From assembly GCA_016841525.1 (NCBI GenBank), contig JAENYZ010000001.1, positions 620,001 to 684,000 of the forward strand: 64,000 bases of DNA. Reading direction: 5' to 3'. How positions within the stretch are numbered: the first letter of the stretch is position 1; every line of letters starts with the position of its first letter. The translations under genes and the position numbers were made by a program. Positions 15,189-20,708 of the stretch are shown piece by piece. Below the pieces are notes generated by a model. That model was given only the letters and a program-made list of their open reading frames with translations. It ran no database searches and was not told where the DNA came from. This DNA is from Anaerolineaceae bacterium. Lineage in GTDB: Bacteria; Chloroflexota; Anaerolineae; Anaerolineales; Anaerolineaceae.

Positions 15189-15557
15189 ATGCGTGCAGGA
15201 AGAATCATTGCCTTTATTACTGCTGCGATTTTTATCATACTTGCTTTTCTGTTCATATTAGGCGCATTCAGCCCTGAAGGATCCCCAAGCTGGATCATTG
15301 TGGGTATTATTGGGCTGGTGATTGGCTTTGTTCTGATTTTTGTTGGGACAAAGCTCAGTCCACCCGTCAAAGCTGGCGACCAGGTTGTCAACCTGAATAT
15401 CGACCTTCCTGGAGAGGTGGGAATGGACACCATCAAATGCCAATCTTGCGGTGCGCCACTTTCTTCAGAAGATGTTAAAATGGTTGCCGGAGCGCCAGTT
15501 GTTGAGTGCCCCAATTGCGGCACTACCTATCAATTAACCGAAGAACCAAAGTGGTGA
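15189..15557 (+). CDS. Membrane-anchored zinc-ribbon protein (first gene of the Cys-tail cassette)
   Basis: The 122-residue product has two transmembrane helices (about residues 4-27 and 36-54). A soluble tail with two CxxC knuckles (CQSCGAPL and CPNCGTTYQL) should bind zinc. GGAGG lies 4 bases before ATG 15189. Only three bases separate its stop from the next gene, so the two are cotranscribed. No enzyme motif is present. The context suggests an accessory or presentation role in the modification cassette downstream, which is inference. Confidence 0.75.
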   Translation: MRAGRIIAFITAAIFIILAFLFILGAFSPEGSPSWIIVGIIGLVIGFVLIFVGTKLSPPVKAGDQVVNLNIDLPGEVGMDTIKCQSCGAPLSSEDVKMVAGAPVVECPNCGTTYQLTEEPKW

Positions 15558-15560
15558 GAT

Positions 15561-17333
15561 ATGAAAAAATTTAGACTTTTCCTTCTAAGCCTGTTTATTA
15601 TCGGTCTGTTTATGCTGCCTGCTGCAGTAATAGCACAGGACCTGCGCTTTGAAGTCCCTGCATCAGAAGTTGAAGTCTATGTTGAGGAAGATGGGACCCT
15701 TTCCATCTGGTATTACATTGAATTTCAAAACAGGACGGGGGCAGCACCTATTGATTTTGTTGATATCGGTATGCCAACATCTGCCTATAACCTGAACAAT
15801 ATTGAAGCAGAAGTGAACGGGCAATCCATCAATGATATTGAAAGTTCACCCTATGCAACCAATGGATTTGCATTGGGTTTGGGTGATAATGCCATTCAGG
15901 CTGGCCAATTTGGGACGGTCACTGCCTGGATCCCAGGCGTTCAAAATGTGCTCAGGCCTTACGACGACGCAGATCGGGAAAATTATGTCAGCTTCCAATT
16001 CAGCCCGAACTGGTTCGGACCGGAATTCGATAAAAGTACAAATACCGAATACCGGGTGACGATCATTCTCCCACCAGGCGTCGGAAGTGAAGAAGGCGTT
16101 TACTATTACCCAAATAATTGGCCTGGTCCTGATGAGCCAGATGACATTGGATTCACCGCTGAAGGAGACCGTGTCTACTATTCATGGTTTACTGACAATG
16201 CTGACGCCCATACACAGTATATTTTTGGGGGCGCATTCCCCAGCCAATATGTGCCAGAGGATTCGATCGTAACTGAACCTGAGCCTTCCTCCCCTTCTGA
16301 GCCATCAGGGAGTGTTACCGGTTTTATACCGGCGATATTAGGAATCCTTGGCCAAAATTTTTGCTGCTTTGGCTTTGGTTTATTCTTCATTGCCATCTTC
16401 GGGTTCAGCATCTACCAGGGTACTGTTGGTGCACAGAAGCGTAAAATGAGCTACCTCCCACCCAAGATGAAAATTGAGGGCAATGGTATCAAACGCGGCC
16501 TGACAGCCGTTGAAGCGGCAATCCTGATGGAACAGCCCATGGATAAAGTTTTGACCATGATTCTCTTTGGCGTCCTTAAGAAGGAAGCTGCCATCGTCAC
16601 CAAGGAAGATCCCCTCGAACTCGAGGTTTCAGAACCCATCCCTGACGACCTGCACCTTTATGAAAAACAGTTCCTGGATGCTTTTAAACAACCTGAAAAA
16701 TTACGCCGGACAGCCATTCAAAACATGATGGTCTCACTCGTTACTAGCGTTACAGGAAAAATGAAGGGCTTTTCACGCAAAGAAACGATAGCCTACTACG
16801 AGGACATCATGCGGCGAGCCTGGACGATGGTTGAAGAAGCGGAAACGCCAGAGGTTAAAAGCGAGAATTACAACCAGACCCTCGAGTGGACCATGCTGGA
16901 CGACGATTACCAGGAGCGGACACGCCGCACCTTCACCGGTGGACCTGTCTACGTCCCCATTTGGTGGCCGCGTTATTCACCCAGTTATCGCCGTTCGATC
17001 GGGGGCGGCGTACCAACCACCGCCAGCAGACCTGCAGTTTCAACAGGTAGACCCTCCAGCGGTGGTGGGGGCGTTTCCTTGCCAAGCATTCCTGGCTCGA
17101 CATTTGCTGCTAATGTGATCAATGGCGCAACAGGGATGGCAGCCGGTGTGGTCGGCAACCTGACATCCTTCACTGACCGTATCACCAGCCGAACCAATCC
17201 GATCCCTGTATCCACCAGCACAAAAAGCGGATCTGGCGGCTTCCGAGGAGGTGGTGGGGGCGGCGGAAGTTCCTGTGCCTGTGCTTGCGCCTGTGCCGGT
17301 TGTGCTTGCGCCTGTGCTGGCGGCGGCCGGTAA
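15561..17333 (+). CDS. Secreted/membrane protein with Gly-rich, seven-cysteine Cys-Ala C-terminal tail
   Basis: The 590-residue protein starts with a signal peptide (LFLLSLFIIGLFMLPAAVIA). It has a DUF2207-like extracytoplasmic beta domain (about 25-230), a Pro/Ser/Glu linker, and a transmembrane helix near 258-282. A cytoplasmic domain (300-440) and a long Gly/Ser/Thr-rich stretch follow. The tail carries Cys572, 574, 576, 578, 581, 583 and 585 separated by single alanines and one Ala-Gly, then GGGR. The next genes encode a PqqD-like/radical SAM protein and relatives, so the tail is a candidate substrate for post-translational modification. Confidence 0.78.
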   Translation: MKKFRLFLLSLFIIGLFMLPAAVIAQDLRFEVPASEVEVYVEEDGTLSIWYYIEFQNRTGAAPIDFVDIGMPTSAYNLNNIEAEVNGQSINDIESSPYATNGFALGLGDNAIQAGQFGTVTAWIPGVQNVLRPYDDADRENYVSFQFSPNWFGPEFDKSTNTEYRVTIILPPGVGSEEGVYYYPNNWPGPDEPDDIGFTAEGDRVYYSWFTDNADAHTQYIFGGAFPSQYVPEDSIVTEPEPSSPSEPSGSVTGFIPAILGILGQNFCCFGFGLFFIAIFGFSIYQGTVGAQKRKMSYLPPKMKIEGNGIKRGLTAVEAAILMEQPMDKVLTMILFGVLKKEAAIVTKEDPLELEVSEPIPDDLHLYEKQFLDAFKQPEKLRRTAIQNMMVSLVTSVTGKMKGFSRKETIAYYEDIMRRAWTMVEEAETPEVKSENYNQTLEWTMLDDDYQERTRRTFTGGPVYVPIWWPRYSPSYRRSIGGGVPTTASRPAVSTGRPSSGGGGVSLPSIPGSTFAANVINGATGMAAGVVGNLTSFTDRITSRTNPIPVSTSTKSGSGGFRGGGGGGGSSCACACACAGCACACAGGGR

Positions 17334-17351
17334 AAACAAAGGAAAAACTTT

Positions 17352-17380
17352 CGCTCCTGGCGTGATTGACGCCAGGAGCG
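17352..17380 (+). promoter_or_regulatory. Perfect 12-bp hairpin between candidate substrate and radical SAM genes
   Basis: CGCTCCTGGCGT and ACGCCAGGAGCG pair without mismatch around the 5-base loop GATTG. There is no T-run after it, so it is a poor terminator. The 3' arm ends at the first G of GAGG (17380-17383), the likely Shine-Dalgarno site for ATG 17393. It may stabilise the upstream message or damp translation of the enzymes. Confidence 0.7.
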
Positions 17381-17392
17381 AGGTTCGTATTT

Positions 17393-18766
17393 ATGACAAA
17401 TTCAAACACATTTATCTCTAAAATTAAAAACTTATTCAGAGGTACAAACCTGCCCCAATCCGGGCTTTATCATTACCGGCGTGAGGAACAGGACGGGAAA
17501 ACTCGCATCCATTTGAGGATTGATCCCGACAGCAGTGGATTACTGATCCTCAACGCCAATCGCGTGGTGCACCTCAACCCTTCTGCAGCCTTTTTGGCTT
17601 ACCTGCACCTTGAAGGCAATGACCCCGTTCAAATCGGGAGAGCCATGCAAAAGCAATTTCGCGTTACTGCTGCCCAGGCACAGCAAGATTACATGGATTT
17701 CAGCCTGCAAATGGAAGAACTTCTTGATCCTAACGGCGGCTGTCCCGTTTGTGATTTACAACTTGAAACAACAGCACCCTTCAGCGCAAAACCCAGTGCA
17801 CCCTACCGCATGGACCTGGCGATCACCTATCGTTGTAACAACAATTGCAGCCACTGCTACAACGCGCGTCCGCGTAATTACCCAGAAATGCCGGTGGAAC
17901 AGTGGAAAAAAGTGATCGACAAAGTATGGGATTTGCGCATCCCGCATCTGGTTTTCACCGGCGGTGAGCCGACCCTGTACAACGGCCTGGTAGAGCTCGT
18001 TGCTTATGCCGAAGAAAAAGGGCTGATCACCGGCCTCAACACCAACGGGCGTAAGCTGGCGGATAAGGATTTTGTTGACTCACTGGTGAGTGCAGGGTTG
18101 GACCATGTTCAGATCACCTTCGAGTCCCATGATGCAGGTATTCATAATTCAATGGTCGCCGCGAAGGATGCCTGGGGAGAAACCGTGACAGGGCTTAAGA
18201 ACACACTGGCATCAAAGCTGTATGTGATGACCAACACAACCCTCCTCACCCATAATAAGGACTCAATTCGAGAAACCCTGGCATTTTTAGCTGAGATTGG
18301 CGTACCAACGGTTGGAGTAAATGCCCTAATTTATGCCGGCAAAGGTAAGGATGTGGGCACAGGATTGCATGAAGAAGAACTACCGCCCCTGCTTGAAGAC
18401 GCAAGGGCAATAACCCAGGCGAATGGGCAGCGCTTGATCTGGTATACGCCGACGCAATACTGTCATTTCAACCCGCTTCAGCTCGACCTCGGAGTCAAAG
18501 GCTGTACAGCTGCACTGTACAATATGTGCGTGGAACCCAATGGTGACGTTATTCCATGTCAATCTTATTACCAATCGCTAGGGAACTTATTGGACAAACC
18601 CTGGAATGAGATTTGGGAACATCCACTGGCATTATCTCTGCGAAATCGCGCAGATGTTCCAGAAGGATGCAGAACCTGTGATTACTTAATTGAATGCGGC
18701 GGGGGCTGCCCATTAGCCAGGGAGCACCAGGTCATTCATCCCATCAGAAAAGACATTTTTAATTGA
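17393..18766 (+). CDS. Radical SAM/SPASM protein with PqqD-like N-terminal domain
   Basis: The 457-residue enzyme has a PqqD-like (RiPP recognition element) region at residues 35-110, then a CPVC pair near 119-122. The radical SAM core holds Cys148, Cys152 and Cys155 (CNNNCSHC) for the 4Fe-4S cluster and FTGGEPT for SAM binding. A SPASM-type tail has Cys371, 379, 389, 426, 429, 435 and 439 for auxiliary clusters. I start it at ATG 17393, not 17366, because the paralogue at 18788 aligns from there. It probably installs cross-links on a peptide; the Cys-Ala tail encoded just upstream is the likely target. Confidence 0.88.
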   Translation: MTNSNTFISKIKNLFRGTNLPQSGLYHYRREEQDGKTRIHLRIDPDSSGLLILNANRVVHLNPSAAFLAYLHLEGNDPVQIGRAMQKQFRVTAAQAQQDYMDFSLQMEELLDPNGGCPVCDLQLETTAPFSAKPSAPYRMDLAITYRCNNNCSHCYNARPRNYPEMPVEQWKKVIDKVWDLRIPHLVFTGGEPTLYNGLVELVAYAEEKGLITGLNTNGRKLADKDFVDSLVSAGLDHVQITFESHDAGIHNSMVAAKDAWGETVTGLKNTLASKLYVMTNTTLLTHNKDSIRETLAFLAEIGVPTVGVNALIYAGKGKDVGTGLHEEELPPLLEDARAITQANGQRLIWYTPTQYCHFNPLQLDLGVKGCTAALYNMCVEPNGDVIPCQSYYQSLGNLLDKPWNEIWEHPLALSLRNRADVPEGCRTCDYLIECGGGCPLAREHQVIHPIRKDIFN

Positions 18767-18787
18767 TTTTTCTTCAACGGAGGAGCC

Positions 18788-19942
18788 ATGCCAAACATAA
18801 TTCAGAGAATTAAAGAATTATTTTCAAAGAAAGAGACCTTATCGGCAGGTATTTACAGCTACCAATCCCCACGAGATGCTGACCAGCAATATCGACTGCA
18901 CTTACGCATTGAACCGGATGGCAGGGGTTTGCTGGTGATCAACGCATCAACAGTGCTGCACCTGAACCAGACTGCGGCTGAATATGCATACCACCTGATC
19001 AGAGAATCAAGCCCAAGCGATGTTATCAAAGAAATATCAAATCGCTACCAGGTAAGCAAAGTCACCGCCTACCAGGATTTTGATTCCTTTAAGGAGAAAA
19101 TTCAGACACTCATCAACACGCCAGATTTAGATCCGGTAACTTACCTAGATATTGAGCGGCAGGAACCCTACAGCGGTTATATGACTGCCCCTTACCGACT
19201 GGACTGTGCCCTGACCTATCAAGTGGGACAGGGCAGCTTGCAGGAAGATGCACCCACAGATCGCGTGGAAAGAGAACTCTCAACAGAAGAATGGGTAACT
19301 ATCCTGCACAAAACTTACAATGTGGGCATCCCCCACGTGGTTTTCACCGGTGGCGAGCCCACCCTGCGTGATGATTTGCCCAAGCTTATTGAACACGCTG
19401 AAGAATTAGGTCTTGTCACCGGGCTTCTCACCGATGGACTTAAACTTGTAGAAGACAATTTTCGGAATGACCTGCTGCAAAAAGGGCTCGATCACCTGAT
19501 GATCATCCTCGACCCTGAAAACGAAGATCAATGGCACTCACTCGGAAAAGTATTACCGGAAGATATATTCACCACGGTGCACCTGACATACACCGGAGAA
19601 GAATTCCTTCAACCACACATTGACCGATTGGCAAAAATGGGCGCCAATGCCCTCTCGCTGAGTACACCTAATGAGGACCTGGAAGAGAAGTTACAGGATC
19701 TTCGAGATTTAGCTGCCATGCACGGACTTGAACTGGTTTGGGATATCCCCGTGCCTTATTCCCGAAACAATCCCGTCACCCTTGAATTGGAAGGTAAAGG
19801 ATATGACGAGTCACCGGAAGGCGCAGGAAAAGCGTGGCTCTACATTGAGCCCGATGGCGATGTCCTACCCGCCCAGGGGCTTTACGACCAGGTGATGGGA
19901 AATATGCTGACGGACACCTGGGAAGAAATCTGGAAGCAATAA
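18788..19942 (+). CDS. Cluster-less radical SAM paralogue (pseudoenzyme) with PqqD-like domain
   Basis: The 384-residue protein aligns with the preceding gene product along nearly its whole length. The N-terminal PqqD-like block is retained (LRIEPDGRGLLVINAS, YQVSKVTAYQDFDSF), as is FTGGEPTL. The three cluster cysteines are replaced by Val146, Ser150 and Glu153, and it ends at EEIWKQ just before the SPASM cysteine block would begin. It therefore cannot bind the SAM-cleaving cluster in the usual way. The frame is intact and tightly packed, so I read it as a maintained pseudoenzyme, perhaps a substrate-binding subunit. GGAG lies before ATG 18788. Confidence 0.85.
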   Translation: MPNIIQRIKELFSKKETLSAGIYSYQSPRDADQQYRLHLRIEPDGRGLLVINASTVLHLNQTAAEYAYHLIRESSPSDVIKEISNRYQVSKVTAYQDFDSFKEKIQTLINTPDLDPVTYLDIERQEPYSGYMTAPYRLDCALTYQVGQGSLQEDAPTDRVERELSTEEWVTILHKTYNVGIPHVVFTGGEPTLRDDLPKLIEHAEELGLVTGLLTDGLKLVEDNFRNDLLQKGLDHLMIILDPENEDQWHSLGKVLPEDIFTTVHLTYTGEEFLQPHIDRLAKMGANALSLSTPNEDLEEKLQDLRDLAAMHGLELVWDIPVPYSRNNPVTLELEGKGYDESPEGAGKAWLYIEPDGDVLPAQGLYDQVMGNMLTDTWEEIWKQ

Positions 19943-19946
19943 AATT

Positions 19947-20708
19947 GTGAACGAAAAGCTTGGTCTGGCCCTCTGGCACCGGCGTTATACCCAGCAAGCC
20001 AAATGGTCACAGGAAATCCGCCGGTATCTTTTGGGGAAAATCACCTTAGCAGAAGGCGACAAAATCCTGGAAGTTGGCTCGGGGACAGGCGCTGTTTTGA
20101 GCCTGCTCTCAGAAGAGACCCACGCCCAATGTTACGGCATTGACATTGACTTTGCCAGCCTGGCATTTTCTGCAAAACTTGGTTATCCCTTAGCCCTTGC
20201 AGCGGGAGATGCTTATTCCCTTCCATTCTCTGATGATAGTTTCAATCTCACTTACTGCCATTACTTACTTTTATGGATAAAAAATCCCCTGGCAGTGATT
20301 GCCGAGATGGTCCGTGTCACAAGACCGGGAGGGTTCGTGATCGCTCTGGCGGAACCTGACTACCAGGCGCGTATCGACCAACCAACAATCCTTGCACAAT
20401 TAGGGAAAATCCAAACCCAATCGTTGGGAGAACAAGGCGCTGAAACTGCCATGGGCAGAAAACTTTCAGGCTTATTTCACGATGCCGGTTTGCAAAACAT
20501 TATCTCCGGCATATTAGGCGCGCAATGGGATCCATCAGAAACACGGGAAATGGATGAAACCGAATGGTTAATGATCCAGTCGGATACTGGGGATCGCCTT
20601 TCACCAGAAGCCCTTGAAGCCTACCGTAAAGAAGAAATTAATACCCGAAGAGAAGAAAATCGGGTGCTTTTTATTCCCACATTTTATGCGGCTGGGATCG
20701 CACGCTGA
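19947..20708 (+). CDS. Class I SAM-dependent methyltransferase (last gene of the Cys-tail cassette)
   Basis: The 253-residue protein has the Rossmann methyltransferase motif I VGSGTGAVLS, motif II YGIDIDFASL, a GDAYSLPFSDDSF loop and MVRVTRPGGFVIAL, as in UbiE/Methyltransf_11 enzymes. It starts at GTG 19947, four bases after the paralogue stop, which implies translational coupling. The substrate is unknown. Because it closes the radical SAM operon, methylation of the same tail or of a radical SAM product is plausible. Confidence 0.82.
   Translation: MNEKLGLALWHRRYTQQAKWSQEIRRYLLGKITLAEGDKILEVGSGTGAVLSLLSEETHAQCYGIDIDFASLAFSAKLGYPLALAAGDAYSLPFSDDSFNLTYCHYLLLWIKNPLAVIAEMVRVTRPGGFVIALAEPDYQARIDQPTILAQLGKIQTQSLGEQGAETAMGRKLSGLFHDAGLQNIISGILGAQWDPSETREMDETEWLMIQSDTGDRLSPEALEAYRKEEINTRREENRVLFIPTFYAAGIAR

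Follow-up and report, generated by a model that had tools for sequence, protein, structure and literature searches.

In a 64,000-nucleotide stretch of an Anaerolineaceae bacterium genome (assembly GCA_016841525.1, contig JAENYZ010000001.1, positions 620,001 to 684,000; hereafter the window), we analyzed an operon of five plus-strand genes (positions 15189-20708, open reading frame coordinates). Its second gene encodes a membrane protein of 590 residues that ends in an alternating Cys-Ala tail, and its third gene encodes an enzyme with PqqD-like, radical S-adenosylmethionine (SAM) and SPASM domains. The exact tail peptide is under extreme selection. In our sample, this tail is restricted to genomes with its enzyme clade, and a second type of tail is restricted to genomes with a second enzyme clade. 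The co-occurring radical-chemistry enzyme probably modifies the tail. We consider it likely that the genes constitute a system similar to those of ribosomally synthesized and posttranslationally modified peptides (RiPPs), in which the enzyme uses its RiPP recognition element (RRE) to dock on a conserved helix that precedes the tail, and modifies this tail on the cytoplasmic side of the intact membrane protein. A preliminary description of the window had listed the five genes, and all of them were found where it had placed them; open reading frames and Pfam matches confirmed that the 590-residue protein with its seven-Cys tail is followed by the enzyme, a paralogue of the enzyme and a methyltransferase.

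Conservation of the tail and its pairing with the enzyme

The 590-residue protein terminates in CACACACAGCACACAGGGR (longer tail stretch, SSCACACACAGCACACAGGGR) and has seven Cys residues there. Homologous loci were taken as the best 80 of 365 matches to the enzyme in a scan of genome contigs; L021, the public locus nearest to the window, encodes a 94% identical enzyme. The complete tail and its stop codon were present on the same strand in 79 of the 80 loci, and the exception (L080) begins inside the enzyme gene. Across loci L001-L019 and L021-L162, 112 distinct tail DNA sequences encoded only five peptides: (CA)4G(CA)3GGGR (81), (CA)5G(CA)3GGGR (16), (CA)3G(CA)4GGGR (8), (CA)3G(CA)3GGGR (5) and (CA)2G(CA)4GGGR (2). 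The tails use the full codon sets of Cys (two), Ala (four), Gly (four) and, for the final residue, Arg (six). Since 79 of the 80 loci carry the tail and 112 DNA versions give five peptides, the tail is not due to chance; given this free codon choice, a low-complexity or translation artefact was rejected as well. Tail searches used exact patterns, and the pattern behind these counts requires C-A units and GGGR, so that other variants would escape it; a looser inspection of the 80 loci revealed no other form of Cys-rich C-terminus beside the enzyme.

Mean column identity in 40 aligned tail proteins, chosen from the set collected, was 0.995 for the tail, 0.72 for the cytoplasmic domain (the most conserved folded part of the protein), 0.57 for the ectodomain and 0.68 for a segment before the tail, which is flanked by linkers of 0.30 and 0.43. 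The register of the tail differed by enzyme clade. Clade A, to which the enzyme of the window belongs, is accompanied by (CA)3-5 G (CA)3, and (CA)2-3 G (CA)4 was found only in clade A′; A′ genomes (families f23, f37 and f52) were the sole source of tails in which four CA units follow the Gly. The number of CA units is constant behind the Gly (three in A and four in A′) and varies in front of it, which suggests that the enzyme counts from the C-terminus.

Co-occurrence was assessed in 298 genomes of the window's class, many of which are draft assemblies. The clade-A enzyme (E ≤ 1e-100) was present in 43 of them and the Cys-Ala tail in 39, all within those 43 (Fisher test, 1e-44, which ignores relatedness); none of the 255 genomes lacking the clade-A enzyme had the tail. 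Tails occurring mostly without the enzyme, set beforehand as the outcome that would speak against the pairing, were looked for and not seen: all 39 tail genomes carry the clade-A enzyme. In family f8, which also includes G005 and G157, the tail gene and the enzyme gene lie on separate contigs in G100 and G173, and both are kept. Tail and enzyme were jointly absent from some members of otherwise positive families (f1, f2, f12, f16, f23, f37, f52 and f55). Only an orphan paralogue was present in G192 (L173, G192:C35:2598-3743), where enzyme, tail and tail-protein body were not found; this gene is likely a remnant or has an independent role.

A second tail with its own enzyme clade

A second enzyme clade, B (about 35% identity), was found in 34 of the 298 genomes, with membership assigned by hand from the enzyme search and 9 of the 34 class genomes plus G307 placed by a tree. 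Its partner is a membrane protein ending in CHSAC repeats. The CHSAC tail occurred in 32 of the 298 genomes, all of which carry the clade-B enzyme (Fisher test, 5.5e-41, again ignoring relatedness). Both tails were present only in G276, which carries both enzymes, and no other cross-pairing was observed. The CHSAC tail lies on the same stretch as the enzyme in 8 of the 11 clade-B loci read; of the exceptions, two (L177 and L178) are contig starts, and the third, L140 of G059, has its tail on another contig than the enzyme. In a tree of 88 sequences, clade B formed one branch (100/100) and A′ another (100/98), while the paralogues formed two separate offshoots; several branches are long, which leaves the exact placement unsure.

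The bodies of the A and B tail proteins are homologous (hhalign probability 99.8%, E 5.7e-28, 412 columns), with the tails lying outside the alignment. One clade-B body matched DUF2207 (PF09972; 28.7 against a gathering cut-off of 24.4) and, with 39 bits, fell just below the 43-bit cut-off of TIGR04222; the window protein matched neither. Downstream of the clade-B enzyme there is usually a gene for a protein of about 390 residues, which looks helical by eye; in 4 of 10 listed clade-B loci (L137, L141, L177 and L178), a membrane protein of 163-189 residues with a C-terminal zinc ribbon is also encoded there. The idea that this zinc-ribbon protein forms one family with the zinc-ribbon protein of clade A was unsupported: only the membrane halves align (hhalign 94%, 51 columns), and the ribbons do not. 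Near the CHSAC operon, proteins that resemble DUF2207 by eye and have a Cys-free, Gly-rich tail were seen at L141:11030-12940 and L146:13576-15462, both on the minus strand.

Other accounts of how the tails and enzymes are distributed were considered and rejected. Chance matches to the patterns are rare, as the reversed CA pattern occurred in one of the 298 genomes (G203) and the reversed CHSAC pattern in none. Seven viral stretches matched the short DNA pattern; none reads as a GGGR-ending tail, and some frames contain stops. No plasmid matched the enzyme at 1e-40. At the same threshold, 30 of 400 sampled genomes of the phylum matched the enzyme; 29 belong to the class of the window and a single one, G307 (8% contamination), lies outside it, which speaks against spread through the phylum.

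The enzyme and its paralogue

Pfam searches assigned PqqD (residues 52-108), Radical_SAM (144-299) and SPASM (371-430) domains to the enzyme. PqqD scored 24.2 bits against a cut-off of 23.4 (31.4 in a clade-B enzyme) and SPASM 37.5 bits against 21.5. Three core cysteines and seven in the SPASM region (Cys 148, 152, 155, 357, 371, 389, 426, 429, 435 and 439) are kept in 92 of 92 A/A′ and 10 of 10 B enzymes, counting sequences of the usual length. Cys117 and Cys379 are confined to A/A′; the former (17741-17743), in the linker between the PqqD-like and radical SAM domains, was present in 92 of 92 clade-A/A′ and 0 of 10 clade-B sequences. Among the 78 enzymes of the 80-locus set, 75 have CxxxCxxC within residues 100-220, and the other three have it elsewhere (start choice or truncation). 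The closest sequence relatives in the PDB were PqqE (1.4e-16), SkfB (1.2e-14), SuiB (2.6e-11) and 5wgg, a sactipeptide thioether enzyme (4.7e-7), with an anaerobic sulfatase maturase as a weak match. Among the 25 families listed of 82, no NCBIfam equivalog was matched at its cut-off; TIGR04055 was best with 134 of 500 bits, and the closest NCBIfam relatives were NirJ2 and AhbD (134 and 116 of 500 bits, far below the cut-off).

The enzyme thus carries the CxxxCxxC motif, the auxiliary-cluster cysteines of SPASM and the PqqD-like RRE that together characterize an RRE-bearing radical SAM/SPASM maturase. A cognate short precursor was not found. The intergenic gaps within the operon (3, 59, 21 and 4 bases) leave no room for a separate short precursor gene, and the partner gene encodes a large protein in 79 of the 80 loci. 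A hidden short precursor was likewise rejected: open frames of 20-69 codons lying outside larger genes are each shared by 9 of the 80 loci at most, and those that do recur resemble tRNA-gene frames by eye.

The paralogue matched radical SAM above the Pfam cut-off and PqqD and SPASM below theirs. It had been called cysteine-less; this holds for the cluster motif, since CxxxCxxC is missing, but one Cys (Cys 140) is present. None of 70 homologues of the paralogue has CxxxCxxC at residues 100-220. Its structural model (predicted local distance difference test [pLDDT], 85.4) shows an RRE-like domain and a barrel, with a Z score of 21.3 to SkfB (6efn) over 304 residues at a root mean square deviation (rmsd) of 4.0.

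Structure and topology of the tail protein

The 590-residue protein had no Pfam or NCBIfam match at 0.1 and no sequence match in the PDB at E 1. An AlphaFold2 model (pLDDT, 81.8; predicted template modeling score, 0.45) displayed a beta ectodomain, a membrane helix, a cytoplasmic domain, helices at residues 512-531 and 534-545 and a disordered tail. The ectodomain fold compared best with chain 6ezn_A of the yeast oligosaccharyltransferase (VIA-align Z 16.9, 185 residues, rmsd 2.9), which we take to be OST1, and reached a Z of about 12 with M1 aminopeptidases. Hydrophobic segments lie at residues 1-19 and 262-280. Hydropathy profiles of 40 tail proteins gave two such segments in 32, three in six and one in two, and positive charge follows the last segment in 7 of 8 sampled proteins. 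From the segment count and this charge, we predict a tail exposed to the cytoplasm, the compartment of the enzyme.

The tail was present on 96 of 99 homologues of the tail-protein body. The remaining three are in L188 (masked at the end), in L085 (275 residues, ectodomain and membrane part) and in L184 (kinase/FGE protein, sharing the ectodomain only); those in L085 and L184 have no cytoplasmic domain. The last of these (L184:4442-7078, minus strand; G253, window's genus) is a protein of 878 residues with Ser/Thr kinase and FGE-sulfatase domains, no tail and an ectodomain that is 50% identical to that of the tail protein. This recurrence of the ectodomain in a kinase protein of the same genus hints at a possible sensing role for the membrane protein. 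A minimal tail protein of 255 residues (L096:7167-7931; membrane segment, cytoplasmic domain and tail, no ectodomain) lies beside a full-length copy; because this short copy keeps both parts without the ectodomain, the tail appears to go with the cytoplasmic part. In L181:990-4409 (G048:C353), just upstream of the enzyme gene, the final 155 or so residues of a 1139-residue frame encoding Ser/Thr kinase and AAA domains resemble the C-terminus of the tail protein, helix and Cys-Ala tail included. This frame is absent from the second of the two available genomes of the family, and a real fusion and an assembly chimera cannot be told apart.

The operon and its variants in relatives

Table 1. Features of the operon in the window
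Feature	Position	Strand	Basis
Small membrane protein with C-terminal zinc ribbon, 122 aa, ending in YQLTEEPKW	15189..15557	+	Open reading frame, Pfam, homologues
Tail protein, 590 aa (signal-like segment, beta ectodomain, one transmembrane segment, cytoplasmic domain, helix, Gly linker, Cys-Ala tail); proposed substrate	15561..17333	+	
Beta-rich ectodomain of the tail protein, residues 27-240 (26-229 in the model)	15639..16280	+	AlphaFold2 model, fold comparison
Cytoplasmic domain of the tail protein, residues 299-475	16455..16985	+	Conservation
Conserved segment before the tail, residues 506-550, predicted helical; candidate built-in leader	17076..17210	+	Model, conservation
Cys-Ala tail CACACACAGCACACAGGGR; proposed modified core	17274..17330	+	Conservation, codon variety
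Perfect hairpin with 13-base arms between substrate gene and enzyme gene	17351..17381	+	
PqqD-like (RRE)/radical SAM/SPASM enzyme, 457 aa from ATG; proposed tail maturase	17393..18766	+	Pfam, conserved Cys
Pseudo-radical-SAM paralogue, 384 aa, without cluster cysteines; proposed partner subunit	18788..19942	+	Homologues, model
SAM-dependent methyltransferase, 253 aa, GTG start; proposed accessory modifier	19947..20708	+	Methyltransf_11

The 122-residue protein of the first gene (Table 1) combines a hydrophobic N-terminus with a CxxC...CxxC pattern, and its zinc-ribbon Pfam matches were all below the cut-offs. Its C-terminal PKW is found in 62 of 62 collected homologues, most of which have YQ-x-x-E-x-PKW. 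The methyltransferase matched Methyltransf_11 with an E value of 2.2e-18 in Pfam. The hairpin before the enzyme gene has a 5-base loop and no T run behind it. Among 14 loci inspected, hairpins with altered yet pairing arms were seen at the matching place in L021, L022, L023 and L027, and none of that kind in L024, L025, L026 and L028. The hairpin may set the expression ratio of substrate to enzyme.

Among the 80 loci, 79 encode the tail protein, 75 the zinc-ribbon protein, 74 the paralogue and 64 a similar methyltransferase; 61 have all five genes, and many of the missing ones coincide with contig ends. A cultured strain, Leptolinea tardivitalis YMTK-2 (L082), is among the carriers of the system. 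The gene order described for the cassette is the usual one in relatives but not universal. In A′ loci (L134-L136, L187 and L188), the zinc-ribbon gene is followed by the enzyme, the paralogue, one or two tail proteins and the methyltransferase, and in G254 the A′ set is split over contigs. A conserved extra gene was rejected, as the families between enzyme, paralogue and methyltransferase each occur in at most 10 loci. Gene families upstream occur in up to 26 loci (an MreB-like one by eye), in near relatives.

Discussion

The features described above lead us to propose the following model. The 590-residue protein would be membrane-inserted, its beta domain lying outside and its C-terminus being cytoplasmic, to judge by the signal-like segment, the internal hydrophobic segment and its positive flank. 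The PqqD-like domain of the enzyme may dock on the conserved helix before the Gly linker, which would act as a leader built into the protein, and the enzyme would modify the invariant Cys-Ala tail, a pairing of substrate and enzyme drawn from the genomic comparison. Given an architecture like that of sactisynthases and a tail laid out as (CA)n-G-(CA)n, we favour as the chemistry one or more thioether cross-links from Cys to the alpha or beta carbon of Ala, by which the tail would form a hairpin about the central Gly. Where it is present, the cluster-less paralogue could serve as a noncatalytic partner, and the methyltransferase could add a second modification. The tail may remain attached to the protein and might provide a membrane sensor with a site that responds to metals or redox state.

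The proposal that the substrate is the C-terminus of a large protein and not a short precursor, already made in the preliminary description, gained support from the second tail type paired with a second enzyme clade, from the unlinked yet jointly kept tail and enzyme genes (G100 and G173) and from the conserved predicted helix before the tail combined with the lack of a recurrent small frame. The proposed system would work like a RiPP maturase system yet departs from the RiPP definition in having no short precursor. A bolder version, which we put forward tentatively and with considerably less confidence, is that of a permanent, enzyme-specific tail code on intact transmembrane proteins, with at least two orthogonal tails and dedicated enzyme clades, in which the Cys-Ala tail would be a rigid hairpin with multiple thioether bridges and would form a protein-bound cofactor or metal site of a membrane sensor.

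Several observations weigh against the proposed tail modification. Six enzyme-positive genomes lack the tail, four with clade A (G006, G128, G157 and G005) and two with clade B (G024 and G225). In five of them the enzyme is at a contig end (beside it in G006, G128 and G157, near a contig start in G024 and G225), and no tail-protein body was found elsewhere in these five either, except in G024, where the body is present and runs off the contig before the tail. G005 (85% complete) has neither tail nor body although no contig end is nearby. For the four clade-A genomes, in which a homology search did not find the body, the gene is in assembly gaps or absent. The Fisher values treat related genomes as independent, and the enzyme clades of the genomes are manual assignments, which a tree confirmed for 9 of the 34 clade-B genomes. 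Two clade-A loci (L058 and L077) lack the paralogue and the methyltransferase despite 5.2 and 8.0 kb of room, L035 lacks both with 3.8 kb of room, and L097 lacks the methyltransferase with 6.4 kb of room. No paralogue was found at 1e-20 in families f4, f5 and f8, and neither gene was among those listed beside the enzyme in ten clade-B loci. Because they are absent from some loci and families, we regard the paralogue and the methyltransferase as accessories.

An alternative reading is that the tail is an unmodified, metallothionein-like metal-binding sequence, with the enzyme acting elsewhere in the pathway, for example on a cofactor that the tail receives. Alternating CxC is well suited to thiolate ligation, the operon encodes a zinc-ribbon membrane protein, and NirJ2 and AhbD, the best NCBIfam relatives of the enzyme, are haem-pathway enzymes, albeit far below the cut-off. 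Plain ligands should tolerate changes of Ala, Gly and Arg, but Ala, Gly and the final Arg vary no more than Cys does. Each of the two unrelated tails follows its own enzyme clade, and PqqD-like RRE domains bind peptide leaders (PMC8326336, in its available part), so that we consider an unmodified tail unlikely. To a similar degree, we doubt that the tail is cleaved and released as a small modified peptide, a true RiPP for which the membrane protein would be an anchored, oversized precursor. The leader-like helix, Gly linker and invariant core are indeed arranged as in a RiPP precursor, and a signal-peptidase-like gene (by eye) follows the methyltransferase in 10 clustered loci; however, both folded domains of the body are conserved (0.57 and 0.72), the tail is found on 96 of 99 bodies and is predicted to be cytoplasmic, and no gene family beyond the five recurs in most of the 80 loci, whose neighbouring genes were partly annotated. 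Mere operon inheritance, in which the enzyme would have another substrate and be inherited with the tail without interaction, fits the adjacency of the genes in nearly all 80 loci but is very improbable, given that tail and enzyme are kept though unlinked (G100 and G173), and are jointly absent within eight families, and that no other candidate precursor was found.

Modification of the tail on the intact membrane protein, the reading that we favour, can be compared with known systems. In the literature covered (the titles and abstract openings listed, with subscription papers mostly and bioRxiv wholly outside, hence not proof of absence), we found no radical SAM enzyme paired with Cys-Ala or CHSAC tails. 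Radical SAM enzymes with whole-protein substrates include the anaerobic sulfatase maturase and QhpD, whose targets are single residues or defined bridges. The present system shares the protein substrate with them and differs in the repetitive membrane-protein tail. The comparisons that follow extend to those parts of the cited sources that were available. As in the sactipeptide and ranthipeptide synthases SkfB and CteB, an N-terminal RRE, a radical SAM core and a C-terminal SPASM/twitch region go along with core Cys residues and a possible hairpin (PMC8326336), and a hairpin is the layout of most known sactipeptides (PMC8326336). The precursors of those enzymes have leaders of 8-29 and cores of 26-44 residues (PMC8326336), whereas here the enzyme is paired with the end of a membrane protein about 550-770 residues long, Cys alternates with Ala, and the thioether is a proposal. 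The thuricin CD enzymes TrnC and TrnD are two radical SAM paralogues that act as a complex, with only one activity strictly needed, which makes one of the pair nearly such a noncatalytic partner (PMC12093266); here, too, there are two paralogues, but the second has no cluster cysteines at all and the complex is a proposed one. TvgA and TvgB, which make poly-cyclopropylglycine, also combine a peptide-modifying radical SAM enzyme with a short repeated motif, but TvgA, a peptide of TVGG repeats, is modified on valine and not on cysteine (PMC9062424).

The nearest published parallel that we found is that of the TIGR04222 membrane proteins, whose Cys-rich C-termini have been proposed as substrates of MNIO enzymes, with MNIO lacking in one third of TIGR04222 genomes (PMC12452194). 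Both systems have a membrane body, an unstructured, Cys-bearing, low-complexity C-terminus and an adjoining peptide-modifying enzyme (PMC12452194). They differ in the enzyme, which is of the PqqD/radical SAM/SPASM type here, in the tail, which is an exact motif here and a loose Gly/Ser/Cys stretch there, in the near-absolute pairing seen here (39/39 and 32/32) and in the predicted location of the tail, cytoplasmic here and periplasmic there. As far as that source goes, the present system looks like a radical SAM counterpart with a stricter motif and pairing. In Pfam, the five window proteins had no match to DUF692 (MNIO); wider neighbourhoods were not scanned for DUF692. In Streptococcus mutans, a DUF2207 protein has an effect on how well the cells tolerate stress and form biofilms, according to the available part of PMC10457818.

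RiPP-type radical SAM enzymes have been studied mostly on short, cleaved peptides, and the present results point to a way of decorating a whole protein. Two tail types on one membrane-protein family, each with its own enzyme clade in dozens of genomes, offer a natural comparison for studying recognition, chemistry and function. Should the tail prove to be cross-linked, its alternating Cys-Ala pattern would represent a new type of core, and there would be a role to test for membrane proteins that resemble DUF2207/TIGR04222.

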